DNA of 44,865 nucleotides, taken from assembly GCA_016188355.1 (NCBI GenBank), contig JACPHY010000016.1, forward strand, positions 130,345 to 175,209, given 5' to 3'. Position 1 is the stretch's first letter. Every line of letters starts with the position of its first letter. Position numbers and translations under genes: made by a program. This stretch comes from Candidatus Uhrbacteria bacterium. Its GTDB lineage: Bacteria; Patescibacteriota; Patescibacteriia; JACPHY01. Positions 20,196 to 42,599 of the stretch are shown in pieces. The notes under the pieces are model-generated. The model was not told the DNA's origin. It saw nothing but the letters and a program-made list of their open reading frames with translations, and did no database searches.

Positions 20196-22421
20196 ATGAC
20201 GTCCACTCGGCGATTGGCGTGGTCGATGATGGGATTGGCGATGGCGCTGGTTCTCGTCTCGGTCATTCGCGCCCAGGATTGGGAGAGCGAGGTGCAGGCG
20301 GGTCGCGGGAAATTTCGGCGGATCGTATTTTTGGATGACACCACCGGGTTCATTGTCGGCGCCACGGCAGATGGCAAGAGCGGGGTGATTTTGAGGACCG
20401 TGGACGGTGGAGACTCCTGGGTGCCAGTGGACCTAAAACGCACGCGGCCCTTAACGGCAGCGGACTGCGCAAAGTCCGTTTGTGTGGCTGTGGGTGAGCA
20501 GGGCGCGGTACTCCGTTCGCGAGACAGTGTGCGTTCCTGGATGGCGCTCGATGGACCCACGCGCCGCTCCTTGCGTGGCATTGCGATGTTGGATGGGGAC
20601 GGCAAATCCATGGTTGCGGTGGGCGATGGGGGAACCGTGCTCCGTTCAACGGATGGAGGCGGGACATGGAAATCCGTGAAAAGTGGAACCAATAAACATC
20701 TGCGTTCCGTGGTGTTTGTGGATGCGTCCGTGGGGTGGGCAGTGGGTGATGCGGGGACGATCCTCCTCACCATCGATGGAGGGACAACATGGGACGTGCA
20801 GGATTCCGGAGTTTCCTATGGACTCGCGGATGTCTGGATGCGGGATCGATCGTGGGGATGGGCGGTGGGAGAGCGGGGCACGGTACTTTCGACGACGGAT
20901 GGCGGCGCAACATGGCAGAAGCAGAATTTTGGGGAGCGACGATTCTTGAGTGGCGTGACCTTCCTGGATGAGCGTCGCGGGTTCATTGTGGGGAGTTCGG
21001 GTGGCATCTGGGAGACCCGCGATGCGGGGGTAACCTGGACAGAAACCGAGTCAGATACCGAGATGACCATTCGCGACGTGGTGTGCAGTGAGTCGTATTT
21101 CTGTCACGCCGCAGGAGATGGGGGCACCACCCTTCTTTTCGTCGCGGGTGCACCGGGGGAGGATGTCACGCAGCGACAGGGGGAGCTCCCCATGAATGGT
21201 GGGGAAACTACAGAGGATGGCGCATCCAAACCGGAATCGGATACCGGAAGTGGTCCCGACCTTATTCCTGACGCGTTTCGGATTGATTCGGCTTCTGGAA
21301 TGGTCGAGGTAATCGTGAAAAATATTGGTAATCAGCCGACCGGGCCTGCGCCTTGGGCGGTGCGCATTGCATATCGTGACTCGAAGGGTGTGGTGCTGGG
21401 ATCCGAGGTACGTGTCCCGGTTGCGGATGCTGCCGTTTTGAAAAATGGCGACATACTCGCCATTTCCGTTCCGGGCACCGCGGATGCGGTTCCTGTGGGA
21501 GCGGTACAGGTAGTAGTCGCCATAGAGACGCAGGATGGCGTGTCGGAACTTGATGGGAAGAATAACGTCGGCGTATTTACGGTACCGGATATCCTACGTC
21601 CCGATTTTGTAGTTTCCGAGCTTACCTCGCCGAACGCGGATGGTCATCTCCGGGCAGCTATTCGGAATATCGGAACTCGAGCGTGGACCGGTGCGATTGG
21701 CATTTCGTTTACCCCCAAAGATGCGACCGGAGCCGCGGCATGGGGACCGATTACGACGCAGCTGCCTCAGTCCACGCAAATAGATGCGAATGGTGGGCTG
21801 GTGCATTTCGATCTCCCAACGTCGCTCGAGGCGGGTGTGGTAACGGTTGATGTGCGTATTGATACATCCCATGCGGCAGTGGAACTCAATGAGGAGAACG
21901 TATTCTCCTTCCCTGTTCCTGTTGCACCTCTCCCCGACTTCGTGGTGACCGGGCTGACGACGCAGCCAGAGAACGGACGTCTCCGTGCAACGATCCAGAA
22001 TAATGGATCGCGTGCATGGTCCGGTGCGTTGGGAATCGCCTTCACCCCAAAAAATGCCGCGGGACAGGCGCAGTGGGGTGGCATTGCCACGCAACTTCCT
22101 GCATCCACTCAGATTTCTGCCAATGGAGGTACTATTGCTTTTGATCTGAGCATCGCCGTCAACGCAGCAGCAAAGACCGTGGATGTGACCATCGACAACG
22201 GCAATGCAGCAGTGGAGCAGGACGAACGCAACACGTTCACCTTCCCGGTGCCAAAACCGGATTACGTGGTGGAGGGTGTAGCGGCGGATGTGGCGACGGG
22301 AGAGCTTCTCGTGACGTGCTCCGATATTGCTCCCAAGTGCGACCCAGGTGATTCGTATTCGCGCGGCCGATGCTCCGCCGCCTGGGGTTACTGTAGTGGT
22401 GCTCACGGTGGATCCGAGTAA
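20196..22421 (+). CDS. Ycf48/BNR-like beta-propeller protein with CARDB-like repeats (5' part of a frameshifted gene)
   Basis: Repeated GTVLRSTDGGGTWKSV / GTILLTIDGGTTWDVQ motifs, then PDFVVTxLT...NGRLRATIQNNGSRAWSGALGIxF repeats. Confidence 0.75.
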   Translation: MTSTRRLAWSMMGLAMALVLVSVIRAQDWESEVQAGRGKFRRIVFLDDTTGFIVGATADGKSGVILRTVDGGDSWVPVDLKRTRPLTAADCAKSVCVAVGEQGAVLRSRDSVRSWMALDGPTRRSLRGIAMLDGDGKSMVAVGDGGTVLRSTDGGGTWKSVKSGTNKHLRSVVFVDASVGWAVGDAGTILLTIDGGTTWDVQDSGVSYGLADVWMRDRSWGWAVGERGTVLSTTDGGATWQKQNFGERRFLSGVTFLDERRGFIVGSSGGIWETRDAGVTWTETESDTEMTIRDVVCSESYFCHAAGDGGTTLLFVAGAPGEDVTQRQGELPMNGGETTEDGASKPESDTGSGPDLIPDAFRIDSASGMVEVIVKNIGNQPTGPAPWAVRIAYRDSKGVVLGSEVRVPVADAAVLKNGDILAISVPGTADAVPVGAVQVVVAIETQDGVSELDGKNNVGVFTVPDILRPDFVVSELTSPNADGHLRAAIRNIGTRAWTGAIGISFTPKDATGAAAWGPITTQLPQSTQIDANGGLVHFDLPTSLEAGVVTVDVRIDTSHAAVELNEENVFSFPVPVAPLPDFVVTGLTTQPENGRLRATIQNNGSRAWSGALGIAFTPKNAAGQAQWGGIATQLPASTQISANGGTIAFDLSIAVNAAAKTVDVTIDNGNAAVEQDERNTFTFPVPKPDYVVEGVAADVATGELLVTCSDIAPKCDPGDSYSRGRCSAAWGYCSGAHGGSE
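22175..22316 (+). repeat. Approximately 140-bp near-identical repeat, copy 1
   Basis: gaccgtggatgtgaccatcgacaacggcaatgcagc...gggagagcttctcgtgacg, identical by eye to copy 2; ends exactly where the frame breaks. Confidence 0.85.
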
Positions 22422-23781
22422 TAGTATTCCGGAATTGGACGAGGCGCAGAACAGTGTCACGCTGCCCATTCCAGAGATGCCCCTCCCCGACTTCGTAGTC
22501 ACCGAACTCACGAAGCGTCCCGACAGCGGTCGTCTCCGTGCAACGATCCGCAACCGTGGATCACGTGCATGGTCTGGTGCTCTGGGCATTTCCTTTGCTC
22601 CGAAGAATGCCGCAGGACAGGCGCAGTGGGGTGCGACGGTGACCCAACTGCCCACATCCACGCAGCTGGCAGCAAACGATGGGATGGTCACCTTTGATCT
22701 TAATGTCGCCCTCGATGCATCTGCACGGACCGTGGATGTGACCATCGACAACGGCAATGCAGCAGTGGAGCAGGACGAACGCAACACGTTCACCTTCCCG
22801 GTGCCAAAACCGGATTACGTGGTGGAGGGTGTAGCGGCGGATGTGGCGACGGGAGAGCTTCTCGTGACGGGGACCGCGGCAGGGGAAGGATCGGTGGGAG
22901 TTCGGTTTACCTACACGGATGGTGCGCAGACGGTGGGTCGGAATGGCACTGCAACGCAGGCGGACGCCACCCAGCTTTTGCCTAATGCCACGCAGGTGGT
23001 ACGGATTGGCGTTGCGGATATTCCGCCCCCAGGAGCGGTCTCGACGACCATGACGGTCGATCCCAACAATGCCATTCCCGAACTCGATGAGCAGAATAAT
23101 GAGGCAAGCTTCCCACTCCCCTCGATGGTTTACCCGGACTTCGTGGTAACCGGACTGACGACGCAGCCCAGTAATGGTCGTCTCCGAGCCACCATCCAGA
23201 ATAATGGATCGCGTGCATGGTCCGGTGCGTTGGGAATCATCTTCACTCCCAAAAATGCTGCAGGACAGGCGCAGTGGGGTGGCATTGCCACGCAACTTCC
23301 TGCATCCACTCAGATCCCTGCTAATGGAGGTACCGCGACCTTTGATCTTAGTGTGGCCGTCAACGCAGCAACGAAGACCGTGGACGTGACCATCGACAAC
23401 GGCAATGTGGTGGTGGAGCAGGATGAGCGCAATACGTTTACCTTCCCGGTGCCGAAACCAGATTATGTGGTGGAGCAGGCAGTACGAGATCCAGCGACCG
23501 GTGATCTGCTGATTACTATCCGAAATGTGGGCACTGCAGCGGCGAGAGGGAGTATTGGGGTCCGATTCGGATATCAGCGGGGATCGCAGCGTGTCGGTCG
23601 GACGGGTACTGCGTCCCAATCCAATGCGCCGATATTGCTCCCGGATGCGACGCAGCTCATTCGTATTCATGGCACGAATGCGCCACCGCCCGAGGCGACG
23701 AGCGCGACGTTGTTTGTGGATCCCACGAATATCGTCGTGGAGCTAGATGAGCAGAATACGCGGCCATTCTCCATTCGCTAG
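22327..23781 (+). CDS. CARDB-like repeat protein (3' part of the same frameshifted gene)
   Basis: Continues the same repeat family in another frame; junction near 22316. Confidence 0.7.
   Translation: MLPSATQVIRIRAADAPPPGVTVVVLTVDPSNSIPELDEAQNSVTLPIPEMPLPDFVVTELTKRPDSGRLRATIRNRGSRAWSGALGISFAPKNAAGQAQWGATVTQLPTSTQLAANDGMVTFDLNVALDASARTVDVTIDNGNAAVEQDERNTFTFPVPKPDYVVEGVAADVATGELLVTGTAAGEGSVGVRFTYTDGAQTVGRNGTATQADATQLLPNATQVVRIGVADIPPPGAVSTTMTVDPNNAIPELDEQNNEASFPLPSMVYPDFVVTGLTTQPSNGRLRATIQNNGSRAWSGALGIIFTPKNAAGQAQWGGIATQLPASTQIPANGGTATFDLSVAVNAATKTVDVTIDNGNVVVEQDERNTFTFPVPKPDYVVEQAVRDPATGDLLITIRNVGTAAARGSIGVRFGYQRGSQRVGRTGTASQSNAPILLPDATQLIRIHGTNAPPPEATSATLFVDPTNIVVELDEQNTRPFSIR
22728..22869 (+). 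repeat. Approximately 140-bp near-identical repeat, copy 2
   Basis: Same sequence as 22175-22316 by eye. Confidence 0.85.
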
Positions 23782-25800: not shown

Positions 25801-25987
25801 TATGGACTACCGGAAGTAAGAGGGGAACAAAGTATACCGATGATGCCGAAGCGCGACAACTATGGCTGAAATAAGCAGGCGTTTTTGATGCACATTGACG
25901 CAGCGGCGTTGGATTGGGACAATCAGTATTCCACATCGTCTGCATGTGGACATGCTGTTCACGTTCTCGGAGTTCGATGTCTTCGCT

Positions 25988-26269
25988 ATGTCGCGTCGGT
26001 CGGATCGCACCCCGGATATTTGGATGCTCCTTGGGTTCGCGGGGGAGTTGGGATACACGATTGCGGTACCGGTGGTGGTACTCGCATTGGTTGGTCGATT
26101 CCTGGATCGCTCCTGGGGGACTACGCCGTGGCTCCTGTTGACGGGCGTGGTGCTCGCGGTGGTGGTTTCCGCGATGGGAGTCACTCATAAAATTCGTACG
26201 ATGCTGACGCCCGATGTATCGGATCGTACGGATGCGGATACGACGACCAAGCCACCGAAATCCACATGA
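25988..26269 (+). CDS. AtpZ/AtpI-like membrane protein
   Basis: Two TM segments with GFAGELGYTIAVPVVVLALVGRFLDRSWGTTPWLLLTG; stop overlaps atpB start. Confidence 0.75.
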   Translation: MSRRSDRTPDIWMLLGFAGELGYTIAVPVVVLALVGRFLDRSWGTTPWLLLTGVVLAVVVSAMGVTHKIRTMLTPDVSDRTDADTTTKPPKST

Positions 26270-27006
26270 ACATTTCGCTTGCCGCGGAGCCGCTGCTGCA
26301 TGTGGGGACATTCCCCATAACGAACACCCTGATCATGGCGGTGGCAGTGGTATTTGTGTTGTGCGTCATTGCGGTCATCACCCGGCGGAAGCTGCAGTTG
26401 ATCCCTCGGGGGATCGGCAACGCGATTGAGGCGGTCATCGAGCAGATCCTCGACTTCATGGATTCGGTGACGCACGATCGGGCGCAGTCAGAGCGATTCC
26501 TGCCTGTGGTAGCCGCGATCTTTCTCTTCGTCATTGCATCGAATTGGATCGAGCTTGTTCCCGGACTCGGTACTGTGGGAATATATGAGATGCATGAAGG
26601 GAAGGAGATACTGATTCCGTTCATTCGGTCTGCCTCCGCAGACCTCAATGTCACCCTTGCGGTCGCGCTGTTTTCCGTGGTGGCTACTCAGGTCATGGGG
26701 ATGCGGGTACTGGGCGTTGGTCGGCACCTCGGAAAGTTTTTCAATTTTTCGAATCCGATATTGGGGTTTGTGGGAATTCTAGAGCTGGTATCGGAATTCG
26801 CGAAAGTCGTTTCCTTCTCGTTCCGACTCTTCGGCAATATTTTTGCGGGAGAAGTGCTGCTCCTCGTGGTGACGACTCTGGCGCCCTATGTGGTGCCGCT
26901 TCCATTTTTGTTTCTCGAGTTTTTTGTGGGATTCGTTCAGGCGCTCGTCTTCTCGATGCTTACTTTGGTGAATTTACAAATGACCACTCAACATACTGAA
27001 CACTAG
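26266..27006 (+). CDS. atpB: F-type ATP synthase subunit a
   Basis: NWIELVPGLG; SFSFRLFGNIFAGEVLL; FLFLEFFVGFVQALVFSMLTLVNL. Confidence 0.95.
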   Translation: MNISLAAEPLLHVGTFPITNTLIMAVAVVFVLCVIAVITRRKLQLIPRGIGNAIEAVIEQILDFMDSVTHDRAQSERFLPVVAAIFLFVIASNWIELVPGLGTVGIYEMHEGKEILIPFIRSASADLNVTLAVALFSVVATQVMGMRVLGVGRHLGKFFNFSNPILGFVGILELVSEFAKVVSFSFRLFGNIFAGEVLLLVVTTLAPYVVPLPFLFLEFFVGFVQALVFSMLTLVNLQMTTQHTEH

Positions 27007-27067
27007 GAAGGCGCGTACGAGGGAACGCCGCGTTCTCTCGTGGGTACCGCTCCTCGTTCCCAGCGAT

Positions 27068-27337
27068 ATGCCAACCGAAATGGCAAAGGAGGTTTCCGGC
27101 GGAGTGATGCAGAATCTTGATGCAGTCAAATCCATCGCGACCGCACTGACGATCACCATTGGCGCAGTTATGCCTGCATTCGCTATTGGGCGCATCGCGA
27201 GTCACGCGGTGGATTCCATCGGACGAAATCCAGAGGCAGCGCCCAAGATTCAGACGGCCATGATTCTCTCGGTCGCATTCACGGAGGCGATTGCAATTTA
27301 CGCGCTCGTGATCGCGCTCATCATTAAGTTCGTCTAA
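27068..27337 (+). CDS. atpE: F-type ATP synthase subunit c
   Basis: IGRNPEAAPKIQTAMILSVAFTEAIAIYALVIALII. Confidence 0.95.
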   Translation: MPTEMAKEVSGGVMQNLDAVKSIATALTITIGAVMPAFAIGRIASHAVDSIGRNPEAAPKIQTAMILSVAFTEAIAIYALVIALIIKFV

Positions 27338-27371
27338 CGGCCGTTCGCTCCTACTCATTGTCGCTTGCTTC

Positions 27372-27881
27372 ATGGACGAATTGCTCCACAAGCTGGGTAT
27401 TGATTGGCGATTGCTCATCGCGCAGCTCGTCAATTTCGTGGTGCTGTTTTTGGTGTTGCGGCGATTTCTCTATCGTCCCGTCCTGGAGATGCTTGCGCGG
27501 CGATCGCAGCATATTGCGGACGGGCTGCGTGATGCCACTGCTGCGTCCGATCGACTTGCGCAGGTAGAGCAGGAGCGCGGCGTCATTCTGCATCGCGCGG
27601 AGCTGGAGCGGCAGAGCATGCTTGAGCGCGCAGCGCAGGAAGCGGAGACCCTGCGTCGGGAGCGGGCCGTAGCTGCCGACGCAGAGGCGGAGGCGCGCAT
27701 TGCACGCGCAGAACGGGAGGCAGAGCGGGTGCGTGAGGAGATGCTAGCAGCAGTTCGCGCAGAGATCGGCGATCTCGTACTCGCGATTTCACGCAAGGCG
27801 ACTGCTGCGCATCTCACGAAGGCGCAGCATGAGCAGTTGATCCATGCTGCGATCGAAGAGCTGCGTGGCGCGAAGCTCTGA
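27372..27881 (+). CDS. atpF: F-type ATP synthase subunit b
   Basis: DWRLLIAQLVNFVVLFLVLRRFLYRPVLEMLARRSQHIADGL plus a long coiled coil. Confidence 0.92.
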   Translation: MDELLHKLGIDWRLLIAQLVNFVVLFLVLRRFLYRPVLEMLARRSQHIADGLRDATAASDRLAQVEQERGVILHRAELERQSMLERAAQEAETLRRERAVAADAEAEARIARAEREAERVREEMLAAVRAEIGDLVLAISRKATAAHLTKAQHEQLIHAAIEELRGAKL

Positions 27882-27896
27882 GGAGGTGCTGATTGT

Positions 27897-28433
27897 ATGC
27901 GGTATACCGCCACACAATATGCTACGGCACTCCGCGCGGTCGCGGCGGATCTCTCCACATTCCAGCAGCTGCTCGCCGATCTCCGCGCGGTGCATGAGCG
28001 CTGCGCAGGTGATCGCGCTGCGTGGTCGTTTTTCGTAGATCGCAATGCGGAGCCGACCGCGCAAGAACGGGTGCTCCGTACCGTATTTCAGGATTTTTTG
28101 AGTGATCGAACGTATCAGTTTTTGGTGCAGTTATTTCGTGATCACCAGTTTGCGCAACTGCCGCGCATTCTGACGATCGCGGAGCGCATGGAAGATGGGG
28201 AGACCGGGAGCGTCCGAGTGGAAGTCGTGAGTGCGGTGTCGATCCCCGAACCCACGCGCGCGACGCTCGATGCGCTGCTCATGGAGAAGTTGGGGCGCCG
28301 TCCGATCAGTGCGTACGCGGTGGACCCTGCCTGTATTGGCGGTCTCCGGGTGACCATCGATGCGACGCGCGCATGGGACGGAACCGTTGCGGGTAAACTC
28401 GAACAACTCCGTGTCCGATTGCGATCGATATGA
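27897..28433 (+). CDS. atpH: F-type ATP synthase subunit delta
   Basis: [11 protein letters not shown] ... [11 protein letters not shown] ... [29 protein letters not shown]. Confidence 0.9.
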
Positions 28434-29989
28434 AGAAGGATCATCACATCGTGGAAAAGCTCCGACAGCAGATCGAGCAGTACACCCCATCCGCAACGAC
28501 CGAAGCAATCGGTACGGTGCTGGATGTGGGTGATGGGATTGCGCGGGTGGGAGGTCTCCCGAAGGCCATGGCTGCAGAGATGCTGGAGATCGTCGCGCAT
28601 GGAGATGCCGCAGCGGATCCAGTGCGTGCGGTCGCGCTCAATTTGGATGAGGACATGATTGGGGTGGTGATTCTCGGCGATGCGTCCCGCGTGCATGTGG
28701 GTGATCGCGTGCGCGGTACGGGACACGTGCTCTCCGTTCCCGCAGGTCCGGCATTTGTGGGGCGCGTCGTTGATGCATTGGGGAACCCCTTGGATGGCGG
28801 TGGACCGATTGCCGCGGCTGCTTCGATGCCCATCGAGCGTGTCGCGCCGGGCGTGATCACGCGAGAAGCCGTGCGCCAGCCGGTGGAGACGGGAATTACC
28901 GCGATCGACGCGATGATCCCGATTGGTCGCGGCCAGCGTGAACTGATTATCGGCGACCGGCAGACGGGGAAGACTGCCATTGCGGTCGATGCAATCATCA
29001 ATCAGCAGGGGAAAGATCTGACGTGTGTGTACGTGGCGATTGGTCAGAAGGAGTCGAAGGTGGCAAAACTGGTGGCGAAACTTCGGGCATCCGGCGCCAT
29101 GGAACACACGATTGTGGTGCTCGCAGGCGCCTCGTCTCCTGCGGCATTGTGGTACCTGGCCCCGTTTGCGGGATGTGCGATGGGGGAGTGGTTCATGGGG
29201 CAGGGGAAGGACGTGCTCATTGTTTACGACGACCTCAGCAAACATGCGTGGGCGTACCGTCAAATTTCTTTACTGTTGAAGCGTCCCCCTGGCCGCGAGG
29301 CGTATCCCGGGGATATCTTCTATCTCCATTCTCGGCTGCTCGAGCGCGCCGCGAAATTGAATCAGGAGCATGGCGGGGGCTCCATCACCGCACTGCCGAT
29401 CATTGAGACGCAGGCCGGTGATGTATCGGCGTACATCCCGACGAACGTGATCTCAATTACCGATGGGCAAATCTACCTCGAGCCGGATCTTTTTTATAAG
29501 GGGGTTCGCCCGGCGGTGAACGTGGGGCTCTCCGTATCCCGCGTAGGTTCTGCGGCGCAGCGGAAGGCGATGAAGAAGGTGTCGGGCAAGCTGCGTCTCG
29601 AACTCGCGCAATTCCGTGAGCTCGAAGCATTTGCGCAATTTGCTTCGGAGCTCGACGAGAGTACGAGAAAGCAGATTGATCGTGGACGTCGGCTGGTCGA
29701 GATTCTGAAGCAGGGCCAGTACGAGCCGCGCGGATTCGTGGATCAAGTAGCGTTTGTGTTTGCGGGTACACAGGGATATCTGGATGCGGTTCCCGTGGAG
29801 CGTGTGGGTGCGTGGATGTCGTCCTTCCGCGACTTTCTGCGGGATGTGCACGGATCGGTAGCGCGCGGCATCATGGAGAGTGGTGAATTGACCCCGGAGT
29901 ACGATGGGGCGCTCCGAAAAGCAATAGAGGAATTCAATCGGAATTTCCTTTCCGTGCATCCTACGGAAGCGGCGGGCGAGCGTGCATGA
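28430..29989 (+). CDS. atpA: F-type ATP synthase subunit alpha
   Basis: [27 protein letters not shown]; conserved alpha-subunit sequence throughout. Confidence 0.97.
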
Positions 29990-30002
29990 TGGGTATTCTC
30001 GT

Positions 30003-32368
<2,366 letters not shown>

Positions 32369-32375
32369 AAGAAAA

Positions 32376-32403
32376 CAACCGCCCGGTGTATGCGGGGCGG
32401 TTG
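32376..32403. terminator. Hairpin terminator (T-run strongest on minus strand)
   Basis: CAACCGCCC-ggtgtatgcg-GGGCGGTTG flanked by aaaagaaaa on the left. Confidence 0.7.
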
Positions 32404-32680
32404 CGAGTGTTTCCTGTCGGGATTCCTTTGTGCATGCATGCCGCACGCATCCAGTGGCACGGAAGATTGCCCGACCGTAGCTGCGCGTTATGTCGCTCGC
32501 GTACGTGAGGTCGAGGCAGCGCGCCTCGCGTATGCGGAGGAGCACGATGCTCCCAATGGCGACCCCGGGGGAATCCCGGGAAGGTCACCATACGACGGGG
32601 TCATGAGAGGCAAAGAGCGAGATGCGGCGGGAGCGCGAGTTCCGTGTCTCGGCCAGCGACTGGCGCCCCGCACCGCTGAG
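32404..32680 (-). ncRNA. Candidate minus-strand non-coding transcript between atpD and atpC
   Basis: Minus strand carries an extended -10-like TGATATACT at about 32682-32690 and ends at the 32376-32403 terminator; no convincing ORF. Confidence 0.3.
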
Positions 32681-32873
32681 TATATCAAAATTTTTTCAAG
32701 AGACTCATGAGAGCAGGAGGGCCGAGGACCGGACTCTTTAGCCGACGATGCTCTCTTGAGTATTGCGCGCGCCAGAAATCCGTCCGATGCGCTCAACAAA
32801 AGCTACAATAGCACAAGGAAGTCGGGGCGTCAAGACCGACCACCTGAAATTCGTCATTTTTGTATCATTACAC

Positions 32874-33314
32874 ATGATCCAGCTTTCCATCATCACGCCA
32901 GAGCGGACCATTTTTGATGGCGCAGTTGATCAGGTGACCCTTCGGACGACCGAGGGGGAGATTACCGTACTCCCGCACCATCTCCCGCTCGTGAGCGTAC
33001 TCGCGCCAGGGGAGCTCAGATTGCGACATGCGGGCCAGGAGGTTCCCATGGTGATCGCTGGTGGGTTCGTTGAGGTCTTTTCGGGAAGCCGCGTCGCGAT
33101 TCTCGCCGACGATGCGCTGCGGGTGGAGGAAATTGATATCGCGGCGATTGAGGCTGCGCGCGAGCGCGCACGCGAAGCGCTACTCGGTGTCCGACATGCG
33201 GATGATGTTTCGTTTGCTGCTGCAGCGGCCGCGCTCGAAAAGGAATTGGCGCGTCTTCGTGTGGCGCGGAAATACCGCGGGAGTCGATTGATAACACCTC
33301 CGAGTCACGAATAA
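32874..33314 (+). CDS. atpC: F-type ATP synthase subunit epsilon (detached from atpD)
   Basis: IQLSIITPERTIFDGAVDQVTLRTTEGEITVLPHHLPLVSVLAPGELRL. Confidence 0.93.
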   Translation: MIQLSIITPERTIFDGAVDQVTLRTTEGEITVLPHHLPLVSVLAPGELRLRHAGQEVPMVIAGGFVEVFSGSRVAILADDALRVEEIDIAAIEAARERAREALLGVRHADDVSFAAAAAALEKELARLRVARKYRGSRLITPPSHE

Positions 33315-33962: not shown

Positions 33963-34113
33963 TATTTTATCCACTGGCCGACAAAAATAAAAATCGGGCA
34001 GTTGGCCGAGCAGAGCAATGCATCGGCTGGGAAAAGCGGAAATTGTTAATATGGATTGACGATTCCGTTTCCGGATGTACGGTGGAAGTTGGTCGAGAGA
34101 AAGAGGGGACCAC

Positions 34114-35271
34114 ATGCAGCAGACGGATGCTCTTTTTTATTTTCGCGCTCGCGAGGGGAAGCTCACGCATCCGAGACCTGAGTTTCAGGATCGCGAGCAT
34201 CTCCCGACGATCATCCAGCAGATTCTCGCTATCAACGAGCGACAATCTCGGCTGTACATGGAGGCCAGACCGGAGCGACGCCAACATTGGTGCACGTATC
34301 CTACGGCGTTCGCCTGCATCAAGTGTATGGATGGGCGAGTGCATCTCCCATCCATAACGGGGCTGCCCATGGGACTCGTGAAACCGTTTCGGGCGATGGG
34401 GGGGCGATTCGAGGTTTGGTGGCCCGCATTCAGGAAACGAATGCACAATTGGGTTGCCACCGTTCAGAGGAAGTATCACCTTCCCCACATCCCGGATTGT
34501 CCGGTTTCCTGTGGGGTGCTGGTGACCTATCACTACAGCGCGAGCGACCCGGACGGGGCTCGTCATCTTGGTTGTCGGGGGTGGAGGTACGACACCGCCG
34601 CGGGGCGAGCGCACGCGGAGCGCTTGGCTCGCGACATCCATGACGCATTCATGGGGCAGGCGATTCCGTTCGTGGTGGGCGTGGAGACGGATTCCAGAAG
34701 TTTGATTTTCCACGGTACGGAAGGTGATGTTTCTGGTATGGATTGCGTAGGGAAGTCCGAGGAAGAGGTGCGATGGAATATTGTGCGCGCCTTTCCGGGG
34801 GTCGATACGCAGGTGGCGCATGATCTGGTTCCATTTCTCACGGGAAACGCGCGGCGAGTGGCCGATCAGCTCACGCGGCCACGGGAAACGGAAGCGCTGG
34901 GGCATCAGGAGCGCGTGATTGCTATTGGCCACGGGTTCGATTACTGGATCAGCGAGGAAAATCTCGCAGTCGTCGTGGATGACGCGGATCCCAATCTCGA
35001 CGCACCAATTGCGGCAGCTGCGGCAATCGTCGCCGAGAATGTGGCTGCGCGTCCGGTAACGGAAGAGACGCTCCTGCTGGCAAGCGTGCCGTATAGCGTG
35101 CCGGGAATCGAGTGGAATCTCTCCGTGATGAGCGCCCAGGGGCTCTGCCGATATGCCTTGGAGTATCTTCCAAAGGAATTCGTGCATGTGTTCAATGGGG
35201 GCCGACTGCGCGTGCTCATTGGCGTGACCAACGAGGAGACGAAACTCCTCGAGCCAATCGCGTATCGGTGA
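34114..35271 (+). CDS. Beta-carbonic-anhydrase-like protein (CsoSCA-like candidate)
   Basis: CMDGRVHLPSITGLPMGLVKPFRAMGG resembles the beta-CA C-x-D-x-R ... RNAGG region; a downstream HLGC gives the H-x2-C half of a Zn site. Confidence 0.6.
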   Translation: MQQTDALFYFRAREGKLTHPRPEFQDREHLPTIIQQILAINERQSRLYMEARPERRQHWCTYPTAFACIKCMDGRVHLPSITGLPMGLVKPFRAMGGRFEVWWPAFRKRMHNWVATVQRKYHLPHIPDCPVSCGVLVTYHYSASDPDGARHLGCRGWRYDTAAGRAHAERLARDIHDAFMGQAIPFVVGVETDSRSLIFHGTEGDVSGMDCVGKSEEEVRWNIVRAFPGVDTQVAHDLVPFLTGNARRVADQLTRPRETEALGHQERVIAIGHGFDYWISEENLAVVVDDADPNLDAPIAAAAAIVAENVAARPVTEETLLLASVPYSVPGIEWNLSVMSAQGLCRYALEYLPKEFVHVFNGGRLRVLIGVTNEETKLLEPIAYR

Positions 35272-35348: not shown

Positions 35349-35966
35349 TTGATCCCAGACGATCCATCCGTTACGATTGCTTTCATTGGAGGTGTGTGGT
35401 TTATTGTTATGTATCTTCTGGACGTTTGGCGGCGGCTCCTTGGTGGTCCGCGCGTAACACGACCGAGGAGTGATTTTTTATTTTCCGATCAGCCGAAAGG
35501 GAAGGGAAACCACGAATACGATGCGGTGGGTCGTGAATTGCGCGCAACAATCCGAAGATTGTACGGCGGCAGGTCGCTCCGCATTCGTGCGGTCGATGGC
35601 GGATCGACGAATGCGGAGGAAATTGAACTCACGGCACTCGGGAATGCATACTACGATATCGAGCGCTTCGGTTTGGCTTTTGTGGCGTCGCCACGGCATG
35701 CGGACATGTTATTGGTTACCGGTCCGGTGACGCGAAATTTGGAACGGGCGGTGCGAACGACGTACGAAGCGGCTCCGCACCCCTGCATTGTGGTCGCAGT
35801 AGGTGATGGCGCGTGCACGGGCGGGATTTGGAAGGATTCGTACGCGGTGGTGGGTCCGGTCGATGCGGTCATTCCGGTGCACATTCGTATCCCGGGAGAC
35901 CCGCCTAACCCGACACAGATACTCCACGGGATTTTGCAGGCGATTCGGGGTGCGGCGAGTACATAA
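35349..35966 (+). CDS. Hydrogenase-4/complex-I small-subunit-like protein (HyfI/NuoB/EhrS-like) lacking FeS ligands
   Basis: ERFGLAFVASPRHADMLLVTGPVTRNLERAV matches the family; the four cluster cysteine positions read STNAEE, GDG and PGDPP. TTG start; N-terminal TM. Confidence 0.88.
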   Translation: MIPDDPSVTIAFIGGVWFIVMYLLDVWRRLLGGPRVTRPRSDFLFSDQPKGKGNHEYDAVGRELRATIRRLYGGRSLRIRAVDGGSTNAEEIELTALGNAYYDIERFGLAFVASPRHADMLLVTGPVTRNLERAVRTTYEAAPHPCIVVAVGDGACTGGIWKDSYAVVGPVDAVIPVHIRIPGDPPNPTQILHGILQAIRGAAST

Positions 35967-35969
35967 TGT

Positions 35970-37961
35970 ATGCAATGGTCATGGACGAGCATTGGCATTC
36001 TCGTGAGCATCGCGGGCACCTTGAGCGCAGCGTTGCTTGCATTGTGTGGACGCGGGTTGTGGACGCATCGCATGGTGCAGGTGGTACTCGCGATGAGTAC
36101 TGCAACGGGAGCAGTAGCGGGAGTCGTTTTTCTTTTTGGCAATCGAGTGCCCGTGCTCTTTGATGCGGTCGACGTGCTGTACGGCCTGCGATTAGTGCTG
36201 CATCCGCTTGCGGCGATTTTCTTCGTGATCGTGAATGGCATCGCATGCGCGGCGGCGCTCTACGCGATACCGTACGTCGCTGCGCACCAGCGCACGTACC
36301 ACGTGCCCATGGTGAATAGTGCGGTTGCGGTTTTCGTTTTTGGCATGCAGACCGTGCTCCTGGCGAGCAACGTGATCGGATTCATGTTCAGCTGGGAGCT
36401 CATGTCCATGGCGTCATTCTTTTTGGTCATGGCAGATCGCGACGAGGCGTCCGTGAAGGCGGCGATGCTCTACTTGGTCATGACGCACTTGGGTGCCGCC
36501 GCTATTCTCGCCGGATTTTCGGTGCTTGGGGGAGGAAATCCGTTGCTGGATTTTTCAGCACTCGCAACGTCGGCGCGGTCGCTGAGCAGTCCATATATCC
36601 TCCTGGCATTTGCCCTGTTCTTTTTTGGGTTTGGATCAAAAGCGGGCCTGGTGCCGCTCCATGTATGGCTTCCGGAAGCGCACCCACAAGCGCCGAGCCA
36701 TGTTTCTGCGCTCATGTCCGGGGTCATGCTGAAGATTGCGGTGTATGGATTCATTCTCACCGCCATGATGTTGCTTCCCGGGCTCCCTCCGGGGATTGGC
36801 ATGCTGGTTGCGGGAGTGGGTCTCGTTTCCGCGGTTGCTGGTTCGCTGGCGGCCGCTGCCAATCGAGATATCAAACAAACACTGGCATGGAGCTCCGTAG
36901 AGAATCTTGGGTTGATTTTTTGCATGCTGGGCGTTCATATGTTCGCCGCATCGCGCGGGATGCCGGAGCTTGCGGGAACGGCAGCAGCAGCAGCGCTGTT
37001 CCATTGTGTGGTGCATGCCATATTTAAGTCTGGTCTGTTTTTGACGGCCGGAGGCATTGTGCATGCGATGCACACGCGAAGTCTCGAGCGGATGGGGGGG
37101 CTAGCGGTCCGAATGCCGGTGCTCTCTGGGGCATTTTTGGTGCTTGCGTTGGGCGCGAGCGCACTCCCGCCGTTTGGCGCGTTTTTCGGTGAGTGGATGT
37201 TCCTCCGCGGACTGATCCATGCATTCGTGGGCGCGGATGCGGGAACAATGGCATTCCTCCTCGCAGTGTTCAGTGGGTTTGTATTCGCGAGTAGCATGGC
37301 CATCTTTGCCATGGTGAAGCTATTCGCGATCGCGTGCGTGGGGCAGCCGCGGAGTGCGGCGGCGGCACACGCACAAGAGCCTCCTCGCGGGCTCGTATAT
37401 CCGGTGCTCCTCCTCGCGGTAGGCATGATCATGAGTGGCGTCGCCGCGGCGACCATCCTTCGGGCGATCGGCATGGAGTATCTCGTGCGCACGGACCGTG
37501 TGTTCGCGCCCATAGTGGTTTCGGGAAGCGTGCTGCAGCCCGCTGGTCTTGCTGGCATGGTTATCCTTGCTCTAGTTCTTGCATTCTTGTTCCGGCGCCT
37601 GTGGACCGGGGATCCGCGGGAACGCACCTACCCTACCTGGGATTGCGGACAGCCGATCACCGCAGCGATGGAGTATACGGCAACGGCATTTTCTGCCCCG
37701 ATCCGCTTCTTCTTTCGTCCCATCCTGCAGAATCGAAAAATAGTGACCACCGCAGCGGTGGTGGCTACGAATGCATACGTGCGCTCGCATACCATGACGT
37801 TCGCATCCCGATCGCTTTGGATGGAGTACCTCCATCTCCCCATTGCGCGCCTCATTACCTGGAAATCGACACAGATCCGCAAACTGCAGAATGGGACCAT
37901 TCAGTTCTATCTCATTCTCATATTTCTCGCGCTGCTCGTAGCTCTGGTCATTGCCGTATGA
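35970..37961 (+). CDS. Hydrogenase-4 component B-like / NuoL-M-N antiporter family subunit
   Basis: FMFSWELMSMASFFLV; FGSKAGLVPLHVWLPEAHPQAPSHVSALMSGVMLK; FHCVVHAIFKSGLFLTAG. Confidence 0.92.
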   Translation: MQWSWTSIGILVSIAGTLSAALLALCGRGLWTHRMVQVVLAMSTATGAVAGVVFLFGNRVPVLFDAVDVLYGLRLVLHPLAAIFFVIVNGIACAAALYAIPYVAAHQRTYHVPMVNSAVAVFVFGMQTVLLASNVIGFMFSWELMSMASFFLVMADRDEASVKAAMLYLVMTHLGAAAILAGFSVLGGGNPLLDFSALATSARSLSSPYILLAFALFFFGFGSKAGLVPLHVWLPEAHPQAPSHVSALMSGVMLKIAVYGFILTAMMLLPGLPPGIGMLVAGVGLVSAVAGSLAAAANRDIKQTLAWSSVENLGLIFCMLGVHMFAASRGMPELAGTAAAAALFHCVVHAIFKSGLFLTAGGIVHAMHTRSLERMGGLAVRMPVLSGAFLVLALGASALPPFGAFFGEWMFLRGLIHAFVGADAGTMAFLLAVFSGFVFASSMAIFAMVKLFAIACVGQPRSAAAAHAQEPPRGLVYPVLLLAVGMIMSGVAAATILRAIGMEYLVRTDRVFAPIVVSGSVLQPAGLAGMVILALVLAFLFRRLWTGDPRERTYPTWDCGQPITAAMEYTATAFSAPIRFFFRPILQNRKIVTTAAVVATNAYVRSHTMTFASRSLWMEYLHLPIARLITWKSTQIRKLQNGTIQFYLILIFLALLVALVIAV

Positions 37962-38905
37962 GCTCTCTTCTCATCACGGTGTTGCAGTTCCTTTTGGTGC
38001 TTGGGTGCGCGCCGTTTGCGACAGGCATGGTGCGCTGGGTCAAGGCGCGGATGCAGGGGCGTGCCGGAGCGTCGCCATTGCTTCCGTATTACACGTTGGC
38101 GACGCTCTTTCGGAAAGAAATGGTGATTTCCCCCGTGACCTCTTGGGTATTCCGCGTTTCGCCGTTTGTGGTGCTCGCGACGGCACTGGTGGTATCGGCG
38201 GTGCTGCCGTTGCTCTCGGGAGGTGGCATGTTCGCGGGGAATGGAGACGATTTTCTCTTTTTTGCCGGCATATTGATGCTGGGGTCCGTATTTTTGGTGT
38301 TGGGTGGTCTGGATCCCGGCAGTGCATTTGGTGGCATGGGAGCGAGTCGTGAGATGACGATCGCCACATTAATTGAGCCTGCGGTGATGGTGACGCTGAC
38401 CGCGTTCGCCGCGGCGAGTGGAACGGGTAGCACCAGTGGCATGCTTGCGGCGGGGGGAGGATACCTGCTCGCACACCCAGCACTCCTGCTGAGTGTGCTC
38501 GCGTTTGTTTTTGTTCTACTCGCGGAGAATGCACGATATCCCGTGGATAATCCCGCAACCCATCTCGAGCTTACGATGGTCCATGAGGCGATGGTGTTAG
38601 AGTACTCTGGACCATATCTCGCCATGCTGGAGTTCGCGTCGAGTATTAAGTTGGCGGTCTTCGCAATATTCCTGGGGAATCTCCTCGTTCCGCAGACCCT
38701 GCTCCCGGTGGGCGGCGGTGCGGAGAGTTTGGTGGTTGCGGTGCTCGGCATGGCTGCGAAGTTGACGATCATGATGGTGTTATTGGCACTGCTCGAATCC
38801 ACGATTCCGAAGATGCGGTTCTACCGTATGCAAGAATACTCCGCAATGGCATTTGGGATCGCGCTTGCGGGATTAGTGCTGACCATTCTCCCGAATATTG
38901 TATGA
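37958..38905 (+). CDS. Hydrogenase-4 component C-like / NuoH-like subunit
   Basis: ARMQGRAGASPLLPYYTLATLFRKE; ENARYPVDNPATHLELTMVHEAMVLEYSG. Confidence 0.92.
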   Translation: MSSLLITVLQFLLVLGCAPFATGMVRWVKARMQGRAGASPLLPYYTLATLFRKEMVISPVTSWVFRVSPFVVLATALVVSAVLPLLSGGGMFAGNGDDFLFFAGILMLGSVFLVLGGLDPGSAFGGMGASREMTIATLIEPAVMVTLTAFAAASGTGSTSGMLAAGGGYLLAHPALLLSVLAFVFVLLAENARYPVDNPATHLELTMVHEAMVLEYSGPYLAMLEFASSIKLAVFAIFLGNLLVPQTLLPVGGGAESLVVAVLGMAAKLTIMMVLLALLESTIPKMRFYRMQEYSAMAFGIALAGLVLTILPNIV

Positions 38906-39552
38906 ATCTCCCGCTGGTCAATGCGGGAATTGCTGGAGTAGTCCTCATGACGTCCATGATGGCGGTGGCAACGTTTCGATTCCGGACGTTGGTGCGCTAT
39001 TTCGCGATTTCCTCCTTTCTGCTCGCGGTGCTGATTGCGGGTATTGGGTATGTTCATGCGAATGCACATCTCTACCCCATCGCGCTCGCGAATGTGTGCT
39101 TCAAGGTGATATTGATACCGCTCCTGCTCCTCCGCGCGGCGCGGGCATCGGGAGCGTCGGAGCGACTGCGGTCATATCTTCGGCCGGCATCAACGTACGC
39201 GGTGCTGCTCGGTATCCTGGTGTTCGTGTTCGTGGGGATTCGGCGATCGCCATTTTTTGGCCTGGTCGATCCGGGATACCTCCTGTACCTCGCGGTGAGT
39301 TTGGTGCTGATGGGATTCTTCATGATGATCGCACGCCGCGATGTGCTCTCGCAGATACTCGGATTCCTCATCATGGAAAATGGCATCGCGATGTTCTCCT
39401 ACGCAACCGTGAGTAGCCTCCCCATCCTCATTGAGCTTGGTATTTTCGTGACGGTGACCGTGGGCGCACTGCTCATGTCATTTTTGAGTAAGCACGTCCA
39501 GCAACTCTACGGCACCGAAGATACGGACATGCTCCGCGAACTCACGGATTAG
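38902..39552 (+). CDS. Hydrogenase-4 component E-like / NuoK-like subunit
   Basis: LGFLIMENGIAMFSYATVSSLPILIELGIFVTVTVGALLMSFL; overlaps the upstream stop. Confidence 0.88.
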   Translation: MNLPLVNAGIAGVVLMTSMMAVATFRFRTLVRYFAISSFLLAVLIAGIGYVHANAHLYPIALANVCFKVILIPLLLLRAARASGASERLRSYLRPASTYAVLLGILVFVFVGIRRSPFFGLVDPGYLLYLAVSLVLMGFFMMIARRDVLSQILGFLIMENGIAMFSYATVSSLPILIELGIFVTVTVGALLMSFLSKHVQQLYGTEDTDMLRELTD

Positions 39553-39555
39553 CGT

Positions 39556-41043
39556 ATGCACCCGTTCATCCTCTTCGTTCTCTTGCTCGGCACTGCGGCG
39601 ATCACGGCGCTGCCGCAGCTCTCCGATCGACTGCGGAATAGAATTTCCGGATTCGGCGGGCTTCTGGGTGCGGCGGCAGGTATCGCGGTGGCGCTTCCCG
39701 TGCTCTCGGGGTCCTCGGGATCGGTATGGGTAGATGAGTGGCTGCTCATGGATCGCGCGGCAGCCTTTCTCCTTGTTTTGGTCATGATTGTATATGCGGC
39801 GGCGACCGTCGCGAGCGGCGTGTACCTCCAACGGGAGCGGAGTTCCGGCGCAATTACGGAGCGACGAGCGCGGCTGTATTGTGTGCTCCTGCACGTATTT
39901 GTTGCAACCATGGTCGCCGCGGCCCTGGCGAATAATATTGTGGTGCTTTGGATTGCGCTCGAGGCAACGACCCTGAGTACCACGCTTCTAGTTGCATTTC
40001 GGCGAACTACCGGCTCCGTGGAGGCGGCGTGGAAGTACATCGTGCTCTGTTCGACGGGCATCACGCTCGGTTTACTGGGAGTGCTCATGATGAGCTACGC
40101 CGGTAAGTCTACGGGCGCGCTCGTGGGAGGCGATGCGTTTTTACTGCACGCGCTTCGGGAGCACGCCACCGGCCTTGCGCCCGCTGCGGTCCGTTGGGCG
40201 TTTGTCTTCCTTTTTGTGGGGATTGGGACAAAAGTAGGTCTTGCGCCCATGCACTCCTGGCTTCCGGATGCGCACAGCAAGACACCGTCGCCGATTTCCG
40301 CGTTGCTTTCCGGAGTACTCCTGAACGTGGCATTTCTCGTGCTCCTGCGATTTAAGGTGATTGCCGATCTCGCATTCGGCTCCGCGACATGGACGAATGG
40401 ATTTTTTCTTGGGTTCGGCATCCTGTCGATTGCCATTCCTGCGCTTACGTTGCTGACTCAGCGCAATTACAAGCGCATGTTAGGGTACTCCAGCATTGAG
40501 CACATGGGCATCCTTGCGTTTGCGGTTGGCCTCGGACCGTTTGGTATGATTCCCGCCGTTATGCACATGGCGGGACATGCGCTCGCAAAGCCACTCCTCT
40601 TCCTTGGAGCGGGGGAGTTCCTCCATCGTTGGCAGTCCACACTGATTTCTGATGTGCAGGGCACCATGGGACGCATGCCCCGCACGGCCGCGCTCTTTTT
40701 TGGTGGATTGCTTGCGTTGCTTGCGGTTCCGCCCTCCGCGCTCTTCGTGAGTGAATTCATGATCGTGGGGTATGGAATTACGCAGCATCCCGTGTGGACG
40801 GTGCTCGTGCTCGTGCTGCTCACTATTGCGTGCGTCGCTATGATGCGGATCGGGGTGGGGATGGTGTTCGGTAAGCCGCCGCAAGATGGAGATACAGAGG
40901 TGCAGTCGGAGCCATACCAGCGTATGCATGCGGTATTAGCGGTGCAGCTCATTGGTGTGGTGGCATTGGGATTGTGGTTCACGACATCATCGGGGTTCGC
41001 GTTTGCTGCATCGATTGCGAATGACCTCATCGCGCGCGTATGA
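39556..41043 (+). CDS. Hydrogenase-4 component F-like / NuoN-M antiporter family subunit
   Basis: LWIALEATTLSTTLLVAF; GIGTKVGLAPMHSWLPDAHSKTPSPISALLSGVLLN; GHALAKPLLFL. Confidence 0.92.
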   Translation: MHPFILFVLLLGTAAITALPQLSDRLRNRISGFGGLLGAAAGIAVALPVLSGSSGSVWVDEWLLMDRAAAFLLVLVMIVYAAATVASGVYLQRERSSGAITERRARLYCVLLHVFVATMVAAALANNIVVLWIALEATTLSTTLLVAFRRTTGSVEAAWKYIVLCSTGITLGLLGVLMMSYAGKSTGALVGGDAFLLHALREHATGLAPAAVRWAFVFLFVGIGTKVGLAPMHSWLPDAHSKTPSPISALLSGVLLNVAFLVLLRFKVIADLAFGSATWTNGFFLGFGILSIAIPALTLLTQRNYKRMLGYSSIEHMGILAFAVGLGPFGMIPAVMHMAGHALAKPLLFLGAGEFLHRWQSTLISDVQGTMGRMPRTAALFFGGLLALLAVPPSALFVSEFMIVGYGITQHPVWTVLVLVLLTIACVAMMRIGVGMVFGKPPQDGDTEVQSEPYQRMHAVLAVQLIGVVALGLWFTTSSGFAFAASIANDLIARV

Positions 41044-42599
41044 CGACCATGGATATCCTTCGACAGCTCGATGCGCAGGTATGTCCCACCATCGACGCGG
41101 GCATGGTGGTGACCGATGTGCCGCGAGAGGAATTTGCACGGATGGGTACGACACTGGTACAGGAGCACGGATTTCGTCTCATGACATTATTTGCGACGGA
41201 CGATCGAGTCGTGGCGCAGGGGTTCGGGTTACGGGCGGTTTTGGTCCACGATGCCACGCATGAGCAGGTGATGATTCGGACGTTGCTGCCGGAACAGGAT
41301 CCGCGATATCCTGCGCTCACGACAACGGTGATGGCGGCGCACTGGTATGAGCGCTACGCCATGGATATGTTTGGCATTGTAGCGGAGGGGCACCCAGATC
41401 CGCGGCGCCTGGTGCATCATGAGAATGTTCCTGAGGGAACGTGGCCACTCCGAAAGGATTTCGCCTGGAATACGAAAATGGCACACGACGATGTCCCGTA
41501 CCCCATGCATCATGTGGCGGGGGAGGGGATTTATGAAATTCCGGTGGGTCCCATCCACGCGGGTATCATTGAGCCGGGGCATTTTCGATTCAACGTGGCC
41601 GGGGAGCGCATTATCACTCTGGAGGGGAAGCTCTTTTTTGCGCACAAAGGCGTGGAGAAGCTCCTCGAAGGAAGAACACTGCTCGAGGCGCTTCCGTACG
41701 TCGAGCGCATCTCTGGTGATATGGCGGTGGCGCATGCGCTCGCGTTTTCTCAGGCAGCAGAGGCGATCGCGGGTGTTGCGGTTCCGCAGCGTGCGGCCTG
41801 GCTTCGCGCGTTGCTACTGGAGCTTGAACGTATGACCATGCACATCCATGACCTTGCGAATATCGGAGGCAATGGGACGGGGTACACGATGCTCGTGGCG
41901 CATGGATTTCGGATAAAGGAGCGGCTCATGCAATGTGCGGAGGCGGTGTTCGGGAATCGATTTTGGCGCGGGTATGTTGTTCCTGGTGGGGTTCGAGCGG
42001 ACTGCTCGGATACGACCATCCAGGAAATTGCGGCGATCGCTCGGGGGGCAGCGGAGGAGATGGGGGTGCTGGTGGGGACGGGGTTGCAATCCGACGCGTT
42101 CCGCGAGCGACTAGAGACGACGGGGGTGTTGCCGCGGGTTACTGCAATAGCATATGGTGCGGTCGGGGTGGGTGCTCGGGCGTCCGGGTTGGATATCGAT
42201 GCGCGGCGCGATCATTCGGATTCGGCGTATGCAATATTAACTCCAGCGATCGTTACGGAGACGGCTGGCGACGTGTATGCGCGTTTCATGGTGCGGGTTC
42301 GGGAGCTGGAAGTTGGCGCGGCATTGATCGCGCGCATTGCTCGGGAGATCCCCGATGGGGCGCACATGGTGCCGTGTGCGCCGGTGCACGGGTTTCATGT
42401 TGGCGTGGTGGAGTCGTGGCGCGGGGAGATTGCAACCGCGCTCATCATGCGAGACGGAAAGATTGAGCGGTGCTTCCCGCGCGACCCCTCTTTCTGTAAT
42501 TGGGCGTTATTTGGAGAGCTCGGACCTGGTAACATTGTCCCGGATTTCCCGCTGTGCAATAAGTCGTTGAATCTAAGTTACTCCGGAACGGATTTGTAA
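41040..42599 (+). CDS. Fused NuoCD/HyfG-like large subunit without [NiFe] cysteines (Ehr-like)
   Basis: PVGPIHAGIIEPGHFRFNVAGERIITLEGKLFFAHKGVEKL; ERISGDMAVAH replaces ERxCGxC; C-terminal DFPLCNKSLNLSYSGTDL. Confidence 0.9.
   Translation: MTTMDILRQLDAQVCPTIDAGMVVTDVPREEFARMGTTLVQEHGFRLMTLFATDDRVVAQGFGLRAVLVHDATHEQVMIRTLLPEQDPRYPALTTTVMAAHWYERYAMDMFGIVAEGHPDPRRLVHHENVPEGTWPLRKDFAWNTKMAHDDVPYPMHHVAGEGIYEIPVGPIHAGIIEPGHFRFNVAGERIITLEGKLFFAHKGVEKLLEGRTLLEALPYVERISGDMAVAHALAFSQAAEAIAGVAVPQRAAWLRALLLELERMTMHIHDLANIGGNGTGYTMLVAHGFRIKERLMQCAEAVFGNRFWRGYVVPGGVRADCSDTTIQEIAAIARGAAEEMGVLVGTGLQSDAFRERLETTGVLPRVTAIAYGAVGVGARASGLDIDARRDHSDSAYAILTPAIVTETAGDVYARFMVRVRELEVGAALIARIAREIPDGAHMVPCAPVHGFHVGVVESWRGEIATALIMRDGKIERCFPRDPSFCNWALFGELGPGNIVPDFPLCNKSLNLSYSGTDL

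Follow-up and report, generated by a model that had tools for sequence, protein, structure and literature searches.

Members of the complex I superfamily that carry a full NuoB/NuoCD peripheral arm are regarded as redox machines. A locus in a Candidatus Uhrbacteria bacterium raises the question of what such an arm can do when the residues expected to hold its metals are missing. The window (the whole stretch of DNA analysed, 44,865 nucleotides; GenBank assembly GCA_016188355.1, contig JACPHY010000016.1, positions 130,345 to 175,209 of the forward strand) encodes on its + strand, in this order, a carbonic anhydrase (CA) homologue, a small subunit, HyfB, HyfC, HyfE, HyfF and, last, a large subunit whose gene shares 4 bases with the end of the HyfF gene.

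Results

The large subunit lacks both [NiFe]-binding motifs

41040..42599, + strand: large subunit, a NuoC-NuoD (HycE-like) fusion without [NiFe] ligands (519 aa ORF; Pfam and PDB alignments)
41703..41735, + strand: L1 site of the large subunit, ERISGDMAVAH, with Ser and Asp at the two Cys positions (CGIC in HycE)
42570..42596, + strand: L2 site and C-terminus of the large subunit, NLSYSGTDL, with Ser and Gly at the two Cys positions (against DPCYSCTD)

The first-pass annotation of this DNA had described the last gene of the operon as a fused NuoCD/HycE-type chain devoid of both CxxC motifs that bind [NiFe], and our analysis confirmed the two parts of this description. Pfam located Complex1_30kDa (residues 27-144, 3e-21) and Complex1_49kDa (residues 281-444, 1.5e-36) in one chain. 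The closest solved structure was formate hydrogenlyase subunit 5, HycE (7z0s_E, 2e-60), followed by Mbh alpha (6cfw_L, 3e-38), and alignment with both placed the sequences listed above at the L1 and L2 sites. None of the family homologues had a CxxC at either position, whereas the group 4 hydrogenases of the same phylum that served as controls (L155-L157) kept them. The residues found at the former metal site are themselves conserved, Asp227 in 38/39 relatives, Ser225 in 36/39, and Ser513 and Asp518 in all relatives with data.

The position of the family in the large-subunit tree agreed with its separation from active hydrogenases, since its 39 rows grouped together, apart from the hydrogenases, with support of 100/100. 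In a midpoint-rooted drawing, the Azambacteria sequence L032 fell outside the two main clades, with L154 as a weakly supported sister on a long branch. The absence of hyp maturation genes, which the annotation had proposed as a check, was borne out for HypD. HypD was detected neither in this genome (G000) nor in 24 of the 25 bearers of the complex tested; as G000 is 92.5% complete, one absence alone is no proof, but its recurrence in 24 genomes is. HypD occurs in a single bearer (G234, locus L073), which has a large-subunit gene broken by an internal stop. The large subunit ends exactly at the end point of a processed hydrogenase, the cleaved maturation extension being missing, and no full-length family member has residues beyond the L2 site, as against 32-35 further residues in L155 and L156.

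The small subunit has lost the ligands of its [4Fe-4S] cluster

35349..35966, + strand: small subunit, NuoB/HycG/MbhJ-like, all four [4Fe-4S] cysteines gone (alignment; the TTG start is uncertain)
35601..35621, + strand: former cluster ligands 1 and 2, GSTNAEE (GSCNGCD in MbhJ; MbhJ alignment)
35802..35825, + strand: former cluster ligand 3, GDGACTGG (MbhJ alignment)
35892..35906, + strand: former cluster ligand 4, PGDPP (PGCPP in the reference; MbhJ alignment)

Three features of the locus had been overlooked in the first-pass annotation: the loss of the small-subunit ligands, the CA homologue that precedes the small subunit and the ATP synthase operon upstream. The small subunit aligned well with MbhJ (6cfw_J, 3e-30), and at least three ligands of the proximal cluster were lost in 35 of the 36 small subunits compared; L155-L157, the positive controls, retained theirs. 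At the former cluster site, the replacement residues are conserved and in many cases acidic (T/D/S, E/C, G/D and D at the successive positions), E91 and D184 being among those kept. In Azambacteria L032, all four cluster ligands are present in the small subunit and the [NiFe] cysteines are absent from the large one, so that this homologue is a possible evolutionary intermediate. Such a combination would fit a loss in two steps, with the [NiFe] site disappearing before the cluster, the root and the placement of L154 uncertain.

No other Fe-S or flavin domain is encoded among the operon genes. Because the small-subunit cluster and the [NiFe] site are both lost and no other Fe-S or flavin protein belongs to the operon, the operon would, judging from its sequence, retain no redox cofactor. 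This bears on the identification of the complex as Ehr in the first-pass annotation: the missing [NiFe] motifs and the position outside the hydrogenases sustain the name, but in a functional sense it would mislead, since the small subunit is without its cluster and no other redox protein is encoded in the operon. One genome (G029, locus L022) carries, besides the redox-free complex, a complex-I-like gene cluster, the NuoB of which is of the cluster-binding kind.

The membrane arm keeps its channel residues

35970..37961, + strand: HyfB/NuoL-like antiporter subunit (channel residues E143, K224, K255 and E408)
37955..38905, + strand: HyfC/NuoH-like subunit with an intact acidic loop (profile matches, residue conservation)
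38902..39552, + strand: HyfE/NuoK-like subunit (profile matches)
39556..41043, + strand: HyfF/NuoM-N-like antiporter subunit (E136, K226 and E400)

Among homologues of HyfB, Glu143 and Lys224 were present in 36/36 sequences and Lys255 and Glu408 in 35/36. The corresponding counts in HyfF were 41/41 for Glu136 and 40/41 for Lys226, while the position equivalent to a NuoM Lys is Asn in most members. In HyfC, E191, R194, E205 and H210 were each found in 39/39 homologues. Pairwise dN/dS ranged from ∼0.04 to 0.15 across the subunits, with the small subunit mostly lowest and several dS values near saturation. Because the channel Glu and Lys residues hardly vary and dN/dS is this low, the sequences indicate that the complex is under strong purifying selection and is not decaying.

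A carbonic anhydrase homologue lies between the ATP synthase operon and the complex

25895..33314, + strand: F1Fo-ATPase operon, upstream of the complex (c subunit near 27070-27337)
34075..35271, + strand: CsoSCA-type beta-carbonic anhydrase homologue, with CMDGR (C84, D86, R88), H153 and C167 as Zn ligands and Asp-Arg dyad

Sequence scores of the 34075-35271 protein were weak (NCBIfam 4.5e-5, Pfam 1e-3, PDB 2fgy 1.5e-3), all of them under the curated or strict cut-offs, and the homologue of L034 matched Pfam CsoSCA_cat above the gathering score (6e-7). The L034 record is labelled Micavibrio and bears a CPR-type operon; it is probably mis-binned or transferred. C84, D86, R88, H153 and C167 were invariant in five homologues and correspond to the ligands and the dyad of CsoSCA. 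When the predicted model of the protein (pLDDT 71) was searched with Foldseek, the top matches were CsoSCA (3.5e-13, probability 1.0, TM 0.66). Taken together, these data are good evidence for a CsoSCA fold and its zinc site, enzymatic activity being a separate matter. PF10070 (DabA) did not match this protein; CsoSCA matched instead.

The CA gene starts 760 bases after atpC in the window and only a few bases after it in relatives such as L025. Given this difference in spacing, co-transcription of the atp genes with the CA gene is likely in relatives of the L025 type and only probable in the window. A scan for promoters and terminators performed no better than shuffles. By eye, no Na+-binding motif was seen in the ATPase c subunit. 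Elsewhere in the window (20196-23781), a repeat protein that looks CARDB-like by eye is divided between two ORFs that overlap and contain near-identical repeats, and an apparent frameshift or internal deletion near 22300 may be real or derived from the assembly.

Carbonic anhydrase genes recur beside the complex and beside the ATP synthase

CA-like genes of several kinds adjoin the complex in 18 of 37 operon loci, many of which are cut by contig ends. Fourteen of these calls were made with the caA or caB models and four (L018, L019, L032 and L151) by a motif alone, Cys-x-Asp / His-x-x-Cys. The caB, caC, caD and caE proteins gave no Pfam matches; only a fold comparison placed caB, with Foldseek matches to beta-CA at E 1.4e-3 and TM 0.34-0.46. 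The remaining 19/37 operons, mostly of the second clade, have no adjacent CA. Placement varies: the CA gene can precede the small subunit, follow the large one or be divergently oriented. It lies at the end of the complex away from atp in L017 and L018, and in L019, L032 and L034 the stretch read contains CA beside the complex and no ATP synthase genes. In three loci (L027 11643-12239, L028 11087-11737 and L035 11607-12251), a caB-like protein with zinc ligands apparently gone follows the large subunit, possibly as a catalytically dead partner.

In genomes that lack the complex, too, a CA gene can stand immediately after atpC (∼15 caA/caB cases and 6 Pro_CA_2 cases). The linkage may therefore be due in part to the ATP synthase locus, and a CA that belongs only to the complex is ruled out. 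Genomes with caA/caB numbered 15/27 among bearers and 62/354 among the others (p 2.5e-5) with the genomes that seeded the models included; without them the enrichment was weak (7/19, p 0.06). We therefore do not rely on the stronger value, nor on a binomial figure that shares its bias. All in all, a partnership between CA and complex is suggestive. The succession of atpC and a CA-like gene (CsoSCA-like, Pro_CA_2 or caB), often direct, was seen in Patescibacteria without the complex (L160, L161, L165-L168 and L078-L100), and the association of carbonic anhydrases with the ATP synthase across the phylum merits separate study.

The metabolic context gives carbon fixation little weight. RuBisCO and PEP carboxylase were each found in 0/19 bearers tested, and G000 lacks both of them as well as bicarbonate-type ATP-grasp enzymes, which leaves only a weak motive for a recruited system of DIC uptake. 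Because these enzymes are missing, the complex seems likelier to serve pmf or pH economy beside the ATP synthase than carbon supply.

Discussion

We tentatively favour, with a probability of about 0.4, a redox-free, proton-translocating descendant of Ehr that is possibly coupled to the neighbouring carbonic anhydrase in the fashion of DAB, in which a complex-I-like membrane subunit (DabB) is coupled to a beta-CA-like subunit (DabA; DAB2, PMC13144422). In this descendant of complexes of group 4 hydrogenase or Ehr type, conserved polar residues have taken the place of the ligands both at the [NiFe] site and at the [4Fe-4S] cluster of the small subunit. The membrane arm of HyfB, HyfC, HyfE and HyfF, with its channels kept, may move protons with no electron transfer, as its sequence suggests. 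By analogy, this movement could be coupled to the beta-carbonic anhydrase, either directly or through a shared local pool of CO2, HCO3- and H+, and the whole might be a functional counterpart of the DAB vectorial carbonic anhydrase, built on an entire scaffold of hydrogenase type. A bolder version, which we find rather doubtful, would have a vectorial carbonic anhydrase evolve independently for a third time, its recruited beta-CA coupling H+ flow through a complete hydrogenase-type complex free of electron transfer to CO2 hydration or bicarbonate dehydration, the type of CA having been swapped several times between lineages.

Nearly as likely as a CO2-linked role is that the complex works as a redox-free cation/proton antiporter or pmf valve, similar to Mrp, with the peripheral subunits as a structural lid on the NuoH-like subunit and the CA as a mere neighbour from the ATP synthase locus. 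Mrp-type modules operate without redox centres, and the intact membrane arm and the CA genes that follow atpC where the complex is missing are both in keeping with such a device, as is the membrane pyrophosphatase found in 16/19 bearers, this genome included, which implies that a second ion circuit exists. A mere lid, however, would need none of the conserved residues at the former metal sites, which are S, D, S and G for the large subunit and include E91 and D184 for the small one. The adjacency of CA and complex with no atp genes nearby in L019, L032 and L034 also argues against this alternative, as does the c-ring without a Na+ motif. The MrpA-G subunit set was not matched, the subunits matching Hyf B/C/E/F and HycE/HycG.

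It is unlikely that the complex remains an oxidoreductase of non-canonical chemistry, passing electrons from an unlinked partner to quinone or another acceptor as proposed for FDH-Ehr. Although a redox drive is assumed for Ehr complexes elsewhere (PMC6349859) and L032 keeps its cluster, the other small subunits generally lack the ligands, the operon has no gene for a ferredoxin-like protein or flavoprotein, COX1 is missing from this genome and was found in none of 19 bearers, and an electron relay through the protein is impossible with no centre within tunnelling distance. We consider it quite improbable that the former cluster site binds another, catalytic metal through Thr/Glu/Asp/Asp, because the replacement residues, conserved and often acidic as they are, differ between the two clades. 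A decaying, functionless hydrogenase remnant, to which the lost ligands and missing maturation genes might point, is scarcely credible and as a general account is ruled out by dN/dS near 0.1 and invariant channel residues in seven intact genes of conserved order, kept across many families of the phylum, even if the single member G234 does look broken.

The complex in these small CPR bacteria thus probably moves protons for a purpose other than electron transfer, perhaps one linked to CO2 and bicarbonate. If so, fermentative CPR bacteria would gain an unrecognised pmf device beside their ATP synthase. A strongly conserved, metal-free peripheral arm would test how proton channels are driven and what the arm does besides electron transport, and the cluster-keeping Azambacteria homologue offers an intermediate for tracing the change.

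Comparison with known systems

A monophyletic clade of CPR Ehr large subunits lacking the [NiFe] cysteines was reported by Jaffe et al. 2020 (PMC7304191). It comes from the same bacteria and has the same type of large subunit, and our complex very probably belongs to the same family; our own tree, which covers the sequences collected here, shows one clade of 39 rows. The loss of the [NiFe] cysteines has thus been known since 2020; what is new here is the loss of the small-subunit cluster and the redox-free operon. The text of PMC7304191 makes no mention of that cluster loss, of the ATP synthase neighbourhood or of carbonic anhydrases, and in literature of partial coverage (few subscription journals and preprints) we found no prior report of the cluster loss, nor of carbonic anhydrase genes adjoining the ATP synthase or Ehr genes of CPR bacteria.

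Ehr complexes, described as suspected oxidoreductases (PMC6349859), share with ours a group 4-like subunit set without [NiFe] ligands and the antiporter-like subunits; the remainder of their redox chain, that is, the small-subunit cluster and an operon-encoded partner for electron input, is missing here. Formate hydrogenlyase/Hyf (7z0s) and Mbh (6cfw) are alike in the sequence and architecture of the HyfB, C, E, F, HycE and HycG set, but the present complex lacks their [NiFe] site, small-subunit [4Fe-4S] cluster, HycB/HycF-like Fe-S subunits and maturation extension. With the carboxysome shell carbonic anhydrase CsoSCA, the 34075-35271 protein has in common the fold, the Zn ligands, the Asp-Arg dyad and residues of the C-terminal pseudo-domain; the N-terminal domain of CsoSCA is unmatched and there is no carboxysome context here.

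The cyanobacterial NDH-1MS with CupA/CupB is a precedent for a link between CO2 hydration and an entire scaffold of complex-I type, differing in that it is driven by ferredoxin oxidation and has kept its Fe-S clusters. In DAB, as here, a beta-CA-like soluble protein is encoded beside complex-I-like proton subunits, with no redox centres in its description (PMC13144422). DAB combines one membrane subunit with a PF10070 DabA, whereas the locus described here combines a six-subunit hydrogenase-type complex with a CsoSCA-type or other beta-CA-like protein.
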